Below are positions 32,129 to 60,816 of a stretch of DNA of 64,000 nucleotides, one piece after another; positions within the stretch are counted from its first letter, which is position 1; the number at the start of each line of letters is the position of its first letter. The DNA is from Agelas oroides (taxonomy: Eukaryota > Porifera > Demospongiae > Agelasida > Agelasidae), in the NCBI GenBank assembly GCA_949130485.1, contig OX422200.1:723604-787603 (forward strand), given 5' to 3'. The notes below the pieces were generated by a model. It made no database searches. It saw only the letters and a program-made list of their open reading frames with translations, and was not told the DNA's origin. The translations under genes were made by a program, and so were the position numbers.

Positions 32129-35100
32129 CTAGACGGCAGTCTCATAGCAGTCTTCCCTCTTCTGCATCAACCTGGAGTGTGACCTCGCAGCAGACCCCAG
32201 GTCATTCCCTTCTGCCTGGTTTAGGGGGTGGTAGTCATGTGGAGTGAGGGTGGGGGGTTGGAATAGCTTGTTTTGAGTCAAGTGTACTGGAGTGACTCCA
32301 TTTGCCATGGTAGGAGTCCCTGGTGGTGTTTCCATAGTAGCGGGAGTCACTATGGTTACTGGTGGTGTCTCTATGGTAACAGGAGTCACTATGGTAACTG
32401 GCAGTGTCTTGGTAGCAGGAGTCCCTGGTGGTGTTTCCATGGTAGCAGGAGTTACCATAATGGTTGGCACCAGTGTTGATGGCAGGGTAAGGGCCGCTGT
32501 GCTGCTACCATCACTGGTACCAGCTGGGATGCCACCATTCTGATGTGCTGTGCTGGTACTAGTGCTCACTGGTGGTGGCTCTCTGTTGGTAGACGCTATT
32601 ACACCATTAGGCAGGGAGAGCATCGCAGCATCTGTCGTAGTTGGAAGACATGAGGCACTTGGTGACCTAGGTATTAAACTCACTGGCCTCAGTGGGTTCC
32701 TATCACTGGCCAGACAGGTTGTAGAAACGCTGTGCAGTGCTGCTGCTAATGGCGTCAGGAAGTTTGTGTCCCCCCTTTCTCCTCCTCCTCCTCCTCCGGC
32801 TGCATTGCTGCCATTTGCTGTAAGTTCCATCATGCTAAGCCTTCGCCGCTGAACCGCAGCTTCAGCATTCACAGTCAGATAGCCCTACAGCAGAGGAAGA
32901 CACACTGAGACGACACCATTGGCACACGAGTCACAATCTTATTAACACGGCTTACATGAGCCGCAGACAGGAGGTTGTCAAAGGTTGACACAAGATCCGA
33001 AAAGGAAGGTCTTTTTGTGGTGTCTGTATCCCAGCAACTCGTCATGAGGTCATACCTGCCAACGCACACAGACAGACATGTCAGAGATAAAAATAAAAAC
33101 ACACCTCCCAGGCCAAGATGTCACCCACTGTGCAGGACGTATTTCGGCAAGTGGTGAGCCTCGTGTCAAAGACTTAATCCACAAGGAAAAATAATAATGT
33201 AGTGTTTTTTTTGAGTAAACGAAAACTAATTATGTAACTGCAACAAACAAACAAACAAACAAACAAACAAACAAACAAAGTTTTTGTAAAGAAATGATAC
33301 CCCAGGTCTTTGATAAAACCAAAGTGTTATGTCTCACATTTCGTCGGTGCATCCAGCAGGCTGTGGCAGCCGGCCTCCTAGCTGAAGATGGTTACAGAGT
33401 GCCTGAATGCTATTGGCAATAGGCGTCCTCCCATAGGGGAGATCACCTGGACAAGAGAAGGTAAGGATGGCAGCATAATACAGTATACACAGTAGTATAC
33501 AATATAGTACACAGTATACACAGTAGTATACAATATAGTACACAGTATACACAATATACAGTATAGTATCATATGTCTAACTCATGCTAATGTAAGGGAG
33601 TCAATAGGGAAGCCTTGCAGCTGCACGCAGTTTATAAAAAGCCATATTTTTTACTACAAGTCACGCGACAATCCGTATCAATACAAGTCACGCGAGAATC
33701 CGTATCAGGTACTACAAGTCACGTGTGCTGCGTCTGAACGTGCAATGAAATCGAAGGTTCGTATGATAAAATCATTATCACCATAGTACCAAGCTATACC
33801 AGAAAAAAACAATCACTCGTTTGTTGCCGTTGGCATTGTTACTCGTGCTGCGCACTCGTAACAATACAGACGGCAACAAACTCGTGATATTTTCCGGTAT
33901 AGCTTCGTACTATGGTGATAATTATATAGCATCAAGGATGCTGATAGTATACTGAATATAGTATACAGTAGTACACAATATAGTACACAGTATAGCATAT
34001 AATAAAGTATACGGTATAGTATACAATATAGTATATTCAGGTTCTTGTGTGGAGTACTTACCGTAGGTCAGAATCTCCCAGAGAACGACACCATAGGACC
34101 AGCTGCAACATTCATTGAGTAAAGGGAGTAAAGACATGATGTTTACGTTCACTACACCACTTTAACATAATGTACAGTAGCTTGCCAAACCAAACAAGAT
34201 GTTTCCCTCAAGTTGTAGGGTATTTTTGTAGTACAGCATTTAGATGGTTTCACTATTTTCACATTGCTTTTAGGCTCATAAAAAAAATACCCAAAGAGCC
34301 GAGGGTACAGGGTTATACTGTTTCACTCTGACCAGCTGTCACTAAACAACATTTCTGGGTACGATACTGGCCTTGTTCCCAGGCCCTTTGGGGGGAGGAG
34401 CCTGGGGGTAAGAGTAGTACAATATCTGGTGTAGCTGTGATGAAAATGATTTTTGAGGGGTTTTACCACGCTGGTTTTTCTGTCACTTCAACCAGAAAGC
34501 TGGGTGAGAGACTGGGAACGAGGCTACTGTAGATGTACGTTTTATTTACTTAGACTCGTTCCCAGGCTCCCCCACTCTGGAACACAAACATTGAAGTCGT
34601 GCAGGCGGGGAGAGCCTGGTATTTTTTCTCACGTGAGCAGTGTCAAGGGTAGAAAGACCTTAATTTTGTGTGGGTGTACCCGAAGACTCAGAACAGCAGA
34701 AAGAGGTTACCAGGCTCTCCCTGGGTTCCGGAGCGGGGAAGCCTGAGAATGAGGCTATTATTTACTACACTTCATTTATAATATATTTAACAATATATTT
34801 ACTACAAATACTTACACATCACTCTTGTGTGTATGTGTTCTGTCTTGCAAAGATTCAATGGCCATCCAGCGGACAGGAATCCTGCCCTAATGGATATTGA
34901 AAACAAGATTTTCAGGCTCCAAGCGTGTTTACTACACTCACACCACAGCCCTGAGGGATAGAGAGAGAGGGAAACCTACTCCAGTGATTTTGCGGTAGTA
35001 ATCTCGTTCTGTCAGATCCCTTGCCAAACCAAAGTCGCCCACTTTGAGCAGAAAGCCCTCCGCTATCAACACGTTGCGGGCAGCAAGGTCACGGTGTACA

Positions 35101-60056: not shown

Positions 60057-60816
60057 CTCCAGTACAACAAAAGTTTTTGTAGTCTGGAACTCTCCTGGCA
60101 TAATGCTTTTTAGTTGCCTCCATCACCAAGCGTAGCATTCTCAATGACAAGAAGTGAAACAAAGTCAAGAACGCCAAAGGAATCTACGGCTGCACCAAAT
60201 ACTTGAAATGCAGAGTATCGAGGTTCAATGGGCGAAGCTCCAAGGGACAGGTTGAGATTTGTGTCCACTAAACAGCCACACGTGACACAACCAGTATGGG
60301 GTATACTGCTGGAATCTGGACTCCCGTCTTTGTCCAGTATGTGTTTGTGTGTGGAGACTTTCCCTGGACACACAATTTCTGAGTTGCACCAACATGTGTC
60401 TCCGCTACCAGCACATCTCCTTGCACAGTTGCAGGGAAAGTGTCCTCTATTGTGGCTCTAGCCGGTTGTGCTAGTGTGTAAAAAAAAAAAAAAGAAAAAG
60501 AAAAGTGATACATTTGGGCAATATACGGCAAGATACATATCCATCGCTGGTCAACCGTTCTGATGTTGCACGAACCAGAACAAGGGTACGAGGGCTTTAG
60601 GCAGGGATTTGAACGTTTCCGAAGCAGTGCGTGGGAGACTATTGTCCGGGGTACACTATACACCTACCCCAGACTAGACTAGTTGCTAGAATGGATCGCC
60701 TGGAGCAACTGTGATGTCATATTCGATTCACATAAGGTACAACAGAGCTGAACATTGTATCCTGTAACAATGTATACAGAAAAGCACAAGGACGACTATA
60801 GAATCTATGAGCAGTG

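Follow-up and report, generated by a model that had tools for sequence, protein, structure and literature searches.

A tandem array of kinase-less receptor copies beside a sponge receptor tyrosine kinase, with a tail apparently taken from a neighbouring gene

Introduction

How can a receptor tyrosine kinase (RTK) gene come to stand next to several copies of itself that end before the kinase, and what could such copies do for the cell? The question is raised by a locus of the demosponge Agelas oroides, for which the original prediction proposed membrane-anchored receptors with the same ligand-binding face as the RTK, which could act as decoys, as dominant-negative partners or as a recognition repertoire. 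The DNA covered here is a window of 64,000 nucleotides (the whole stretch analysed), that is, one locus in one haplotype.

Organization of the locus

All the genes discussed lie on the minus strand and are ordered, from 5' to 3', as a KCMF1-like gene, a broken unit (c5), the kinase-less copy c4, a nested transposon insertion, the copies c3 and c2, and the full-length RTK. The copies had been described as following the RTK on the same strand; the strand is correct, whereas on the minus strand the copies are placed upstream (5') of the RTK. The upstream neighbour (60817..63718) is represented by its 3' exons, seen as open stretches with a zf-Di19 match (PF05605, 53.5 bits), and we call it KCMF1-like from its domain order and its DPI(S/T)ELLSQLSG motif. 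The spliced model of the RTK (32129..40773) has 14 exons and encodes 1419 amino acids, as predicted, and it is accompanied, also as predicted, by three intact units and a broken one: c2 (41585..43531; 4 exons, 468 aa), c3 (44343..46788; 5 exons, 606 aa), c4 (54035..56485; 5 exons, 606 aa) and c5 (57050..60470), which retains remnants of an A exon and a B exon. The stops of the three intact copies end at 41585, 44343 and 54035, exactly where they had been placed. The spliced models of the RTK, c2, c3 and c4 contain no internal stops, every modelled intron is GT-AG, and the claimed conservation of frames and splice phases in the copies is borne out, with phase 1 joints kept throughout. The ectodomain exons are phase 1-1, so that modules can be gained or lost without damage to the frame, and the signal-peptide and membrane-segment exons are also kept in c2–c4. 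Exon lengths of 88, 339, 435 or 450, and 414 or 423 nt are common to the units, and the last exon of the copies measures 545 nt. Copy c2 has a single A exon instead of two, A1-like over most of its length and with an A2-like end. By self-BLAST, the RTK is 92.96% identical to the c2 unit over 1336 bp and 93.3% identical to the c3 unit over 2511 bp, and the c4 unit matches that of c3 with 99.1% identity over 3272 bp, all three figures being far beyond chance; c3 and c4 differ at 0–4 sites per exon. The anatomy of the units, as read from these models, is near certain.

Other features of the window include two NLR-type genes, present as long single ORFs at 1049-3856 and 5040-7811 (both on the minus strand) and sharing 79.7% DNA identity over 1.1 kb; the first of them gives Death and NACHT matches above cut-off, with NOD2 winged-helix and LRR matches just below. 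Self-BLAST reveals tandem repeats of about 54 bp at 14524-15065, just past a long proline-rich ORF (12230-14476), and further along are a DUF829 protein (19102-20040, plus strand, 100 bits), a tRNA-Arg (ACG) called by two programs (23594-23667, plus strand), and a partial MGAT2 N-acetylglucosaminyltransferase II (26721-27815, minus strand, 84 bits).

The RTK and its relatives

The RTK is composed of a signal peptide, the modules E2, A1, A2 and B, a membrane segment, a tyrosine kinase with a long insert, and a C-terminal tail. The kinase domain is intact (PF07714, 274.8 bits) and the model includes the DFG motif, along with other kinase-motif residues. A supposed kinase exon remnant near 34360 (PEMLFSDS) has been discarded, the true activation-segment exon being located at 34886-34816 and the kinase being complete. 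Among PDB chains, the best matches of the RTK kinase (queried without one kinase exon) are those of EGFR (7.6e-48) and FGFR3 (4e-47). One kinase intron contains a palindrome (34370-34524, minus strand) that ends in GCCTCGTTCCCAG / CTGGGAACAAGGC and is accompanied by a CAGTA duplication, and similar ends recur at 41301-41226. The copies had been described as repeating the Ig-like exons and the membrane segment and stopping before any kinase. An RTK-like ectodomain, a membrane segment and a stop before the kinase are indeed present in the copies; as for the Ig-like exons, a resemblance to a Pfam Ig model is confined to the membrane-proximal domain (B), which scores 28 bits with Ig_3, where the cut-off is 30. 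For E2 and the A modules no Pfam Ig model was listed up to E=1; on our own reading they would be Ig-like by their cysteine/tryptophan pattern only, and structure prediction gave mean pLDDT values of 35 (A) and 45 (E2), too poor for use.

In the protein search with the kinase (7984 candidates scored, the best 120 of 2613 matches viewed), the highest identities among the matches listed were those of P0004 (69%) and P0002 from Ephydatia muelleri (66%), and the top-scoring row was a Culex record (51%); among these same matches, the other sponge sequences, Geodia barretti P0011 and Dysidea avara P0012 (52%), did not surpass certain molluscs and insects, which reached up to 53%. The E. muelleri RTK (EMCRGX_G029394) resembles the present one in its kinase, and its ectodomain can be aligned in the same module order, weakly for the first modules, but ectodomain identity is only about 28%; the ectodomain of G. 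barretti P0011 has no clear match to the RTK. By these similarities the window would be assigned to a sponge, probably a demosponge. As for the copies, a search with a 606-aa product found no homologue at E up to 0.001 (7991 candidates scored of about 5.8 billion proteins), 9 pattern-matching stretches of which none was confirmed in genome contigs, and no pattern match in viral contigs. A search with the four-row ectodomain alignment (7992 candidates scored) yielded two finds, neither of them a kinase-less copy: P0122 contains part of one A module only, between other flanks, and P0121, a 265-aa fragment from a relative, runs on into RTK-type juxtamembrane sequence. P0121 is identical to the RTK at 107/146 residues of the B ectodomain and at 79/84 residues of the membrane and juxtamembrane part (p=9e-5), and the B ectodomain of the RTK appears, from this comparison, to evolve fast relative to the latter.

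Origin of the kinase-less tail

Homology between the RTK and the copies ends inside the membrane exon, at 38297. From there, the c2 tail (41532..41596, minus strand; the same in c3 and c4) matches the KCMF1-like exon 62146-62079, with 86.8% identity over 68 columns and E=7e-19 (6e-16 in a second comparison). Two other remnants of the neighbour are found on the same strand: 41477-41455, taken as intron, matches 62085-62063 (E=9e-5), and 41193-41144 matches 60819-60775 (E=3e-4), which comprises the KCMF1-like stop codon (60819-60817) and its 3' flank. The three pieces are collinear with the neighbour gene. A short palindromic element (41483..41533; 22-nt arms, 91% complementary) interrupts this KCMF1-derived tail. 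The membrane exon of the copies reads in frame into the KCMF1-like exon and the frames agree: the neighbour encodes DPITELLSQLSG, the copies GP(I/V)T followed by a stop, and c5 DTITELLSQLSGQKIREKRGHQ followed by a stop. The stop of c2–c4 is a TAG where both the KCMF1-like gene and c5 have GAG, and the c5 tail is not stopped at this point. Collinear remnants and agreeing frames are the traces expected of a tandem duplication involving neighbouring genes and, at the level of DNA, the truncation is shown to be a gene fusion with the upstream neighbour, the copies being composite.

The course of events can be proposed as follows. The two breakpoints of a tandem duplication would have fallen immediately past the membrane-segment codons of the RTK and within a 3' exon of the KCMF1-like gene, and the product would have been a kinase-less receptor gene with a C-terminus and 3' flank of KCMF1-like origin. 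The codon difference described above would then reflect a change from GAG to TAG, shortening the tail to ECGP(I/V)T, and the kinase-less gene would have multiplied. In its 5' part, from the promoter side through the ectodomain, unequal crossing-over or gene conversion may recently have evened out the differences from the RTK, leaving the old tail with its own sequence, which would account for the mosaic structure seen in the copies. A donor-like site (AAG|GTGAGG) lies 27 nt past each of the three copy stops. The scanned stretches past c2–c4, the KCMF1-like gene and the RTK contain neither AATAAA nor ATTAAA; since the last two genes are without these signals just like the copies, their absence says little about read-through.

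Membrane anchor of the copies

In the RTK, the membrane segment is followed by WKYRSFK, whereas the copies end in LLLECGP(I/V)T without any basic residue. Their C-terminus consists of AVMAPLIVVLMAALAMLLL followed by ECGP(I/V)T, preceded by PDNSNTT, and it ends 6 residues past the hydrophobic core. A GPI signal requires a C-terminal hydrophobic tail with no basic residues after it and a small omega site upstream. By this rule, the C-terminus of the copies would suit a GPI signal and a membrane segment with a 6-residue tail equally well. The copies had been credited with a transmembrane segment; the hydrophobic segment is there, but with no basic residues and an end so close to the core its membrane-spanning nature is uncertain. 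In the CEACAM family, stops introduced into the membrane exon have probably given rise to GPI-signal exons on several occasions (PMC2832619).

Mosaic structure of the copies

The divergence between the RTK and c3 is unevenly distributed along the unit. No differences are found in E1 (0/88) and E2 (0/339), and few in the introns (12/617), the B ectodomain (13/426) standing next to A1 (35/435) and A2 (26/414) and, finally, to the stalk and membrane segment, where 28/106 sites differ. Expressed as divergence from the RTK, introns and the first two exons amount to 0–4%, the A exons to 6–8%, and the stalk and membrane segment to 26%. Given the A exons and the 6/339 differences in the E2 exon of c2, the predicted "same" binding face is approximate. 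The maximum chi-square at the RTK/c3 breakpoint is 119.9, a value to be compared with at most 34.6 in 500 permutations, and this sharp breakpoint, where divergence changes most, is placed close to where the membrane segment begins, with about 68 aligned sites left until homology ends. In the membrane block, RTK and copies differ with pS 0.45 and pN 0.23 (rough values, from about 24 synonymous sites), and hydrophobicity is kept. Among the 28 residues of this block, P0121 agrees with the RTK at 24 and c3 agrees with the RTK at 15, whereas in the B ectodomain the agreement with the RTK is 107/146 for P0121 and 138/150 for c3. Since the relative keeps an RTK-type membrane segment, the segment of the copies is the unusual side. 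The simplest account is that the copies, as they look in these comparisons, join an old kinase-less tail to an ectodomain recently homogenised with that of the RTK. RTK and copies have similar ectodomains with different tails in clustered genes, as paired receptors do, and this similarity would be kept by conversion or recombination, a process that fits the mosaic breakpoint at the single locus and haplotype covered.

The A exons differ between the RTK and c3 more than the introns do (61/849 vs 12/617, p=2e-6), with a weaker excess over all ectodomain exons (74/1702, p=0.006). Positive selection on the A exons is not the first reading of these figures, since synonymous sites are raised too (A1 pS 0.08-0.09) and exon exchange is enough to explain them. 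Constraint on the membrane block in the truncated lineage has likewise been considered. Between c5 and c3, this block differs at 5/106 sites and an intron at 30/148; the idea was dropped because the non-coding stretch just 3' of the block is equally little diverged (8/129, c5 vs c2).

Decay, insertions and upstream regions

In c5, the A exon (about 60470-60047) carries a 4-base gap and shifted frames, the B exon (57560-57113) has one 86-base gap and two 1-base gaps, and exons 1 and 2 have no match better than E=0.2 within 57000-64000; judged by these lesions, the unit is a pseudogene. Between c3 and c4, a terminal-inverted-repeat element with GGCCATACC... ends and a TAA target-site duplication occupies 46813..53244, with boundaries set by eye. 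This 6.4 kb insertion starts 24 bp 5' of the c3 ATG, and the native upstream region of c3 has been lost. Nested in it is a BEL/Pao retrotransposon (46936-53013, plus strand) with Pao domains, LTRs and a CGCTC duplication; its 233-bp LTRs are 99.1% identical and it has an open ORF of 1331 aa, as expected of a young insertion. The upstream region of c4 differs from that of the RTK, and the one of c2 shows just 4 differences from it in 811 bp. Having kept this region, c2 is probably the best candidate among the copies for RTK-like expression. An out-of-frame upstream ATG is present in all four units on the minus strand, at 40781 (RTK), 43539 (c2), 46796 (c3) and 56493 (c4), and in each of them its short frame opens ahead of the main frame and runs into the beginning of the latter.

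Comparison with known systems

Signalling-receptor ectodomains without an effector are known from FGFRL1 and TRAIL-R3/DcR1, the latter being GPI-anchored and encoded in a receptor cluster. The likeness to the copies ends there, as FGFRL1 and DcR1 are single genes, and we know of no tail captured from a neighbour in either. Among sponges, the Ig-domain adhesion molecules are the SAM proteins, and to our knowledge both these and the Ig-domain RTK have been described as individual genes or cDNAs. An RTK and adhesion molecules that carry Ig-like domains are documented in sponges (PMC2248247, PMC12018476, PMC11999971; the RTK in PMC12018476), and both types of molecules are reported as raised after grafting (PMC2248247). 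Ig-like ectodomains with and without a kinase are represented by the Geodia cydonium RTK and the sponge adhesion molecules, so that sponge relatives lacking a kinase are no novelty in themselves. An array with a shared ectodomain does not appear in the RTK and adhesion passages of PMC2248247 and PMC12018476, nor in the passages of PMC5793068 (sponge kinases) and PMC8662651 (holozoan tyrosine kinases), and an RTK with a kinase-less array was not found among the titles and abstract openings listed from the open-licence literature. The earlier statement that no system of this form has been described is nevertheless too strong, because paired or decoy receptors with GPI tails are described for the CEACAM family (PMC2832619). 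There, CEACAM1 is accompanied by CEACAM3 and the GPI-anchored CEACAM5-8, with closely similar Ig-like ectodomains on different anchors or tails, and the lasting similarity of the paralogues is attributed to conversion and recombination (PMC2832619). The differences are that CEACAM is a vertebrate family with ITIM/ITAM signalling in place of a tyrosine kinase, and that the tail of the sponge copies comes from an unrelated neighbour gene. What would be new here, as far as the gene structures go, is the gene-fusion origin of the truncation, the mosaic units, and the hydrophobic C-terminal segment without basic residues.

Possible function of the copies

The copy products should reach the cell surface, held there by a GPI anchor or by a tail-less membrane segment and, having nearly the ligand-binding modules of the RTK, they would compete for its ligand or form dead complexes with it. 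That they are decoy or dominant-negative partners of the RTK, working like the CEACAM family, is a reading to which we would give an even chance; the likeness is one of working, and no membership of the CEACAM-type paired receptors is claimed. The intact spliced models, the collinear KCMF1-like tail and the mosaic with its kept hydrophobic block argue for it, and the pseudogene c5, the lost upstream region of c3 and the differing one of c4 are signs against function. These same signs feed the main rival, rather doubtful in our view and still to be taken seriously, in which unequal crossing-over made a neutral passenger array of RTK 5' fragments, poorly expressed and decaying, with frames that are still open by chance owing to their youth. 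One of the four kinase-less units is broken, an insertion cuts c3 from its upstream region, the number of A exons varies (one in c2, two in c3 and c4), c2–c4 are so alike that their open frames say little, and constraint on the truncated lineage is not separable from recent exchange. However, every modelled splice site and frame is kept in three of the four units despite the age of the membrane block (pS 0.45), and this block is still hydrophobic with pN 0.23.

The other explanations are less probable. The copies might serve independently of the RTK, either as surface receptors that vary in their A and B modules, as members of allorecognition families do, or as adhesion molecules. Such a recognition repertoire would agree with the excess of differences in the A exons over the introns, with the apparently fast B ectodomain of the RTK (107/146 vs 79/84 residues identical to P0121) and with the reported rise of sponge Ig-like RTKs and adhesion molecules after grafting (PMC2248247); it is made improbable by the raised synonymous sites, a sign that exons were exchanged and not that residues were under selection, by the weaker excess over all ectodomain exons, and by the presence of just three intact copies in one haplotype. 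A shade more improbable is the use of c2–c4 as alternative 5' exon cassettes, with transcripts starting in the copies and their ectodomain exons being spliced onto the membrane and kinase exons of the RTK to give RTK variants. The position of the copies 5' of the RTK on the same strand, the phase 1 ectodomain joints, the donor-like site past each stop and the lack of AATAAA/ATTAAA in the scanned stretches would allow it, but splicing would need to pass over the membrane exon and stop of each copy, preservation of the hydrophobic tail would make no sense, and these poly(A) signals are also missing at the KCMF1-like gene and the RTK. Finally, an assembly artefact of collapsed or duplicated repeats, which the 99.1% identity of c3 and c4 over 3.27 kb might suggest, is made very improbable by the distinct flanks at unit boundaries, the clean target-site duplications at the c3/c4 insertion, the own exon structure of c2 and the marked divergence of c5.

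Significance

The best-known examples of decoy and paired receptors that gene conversion keeps alike come from immune families of vertebrates. Taking the decoy reading further, an early-branching animal might possess its own paired-receptor locus, in which GPI-anchored decoys, born by capture of the 3' end of a neighbour, track the fast-changing ectodomain of the RTK by conversion and regulate or guard the RTK in self/non-self or microbe recognition; this extension is tentative and, on balance, unlikely. A clear case of an RTK-decoy locus in a sponge would show that this design also exists in an early lineage of animals. The locus also suggests a birth route for a decoy gene, by duplication, capture of a neighbour exon as tail and 3' flank, and a stop mutation, and it would offer a concrete place to test the participation of sponge Ig-type RTKs in recognition.
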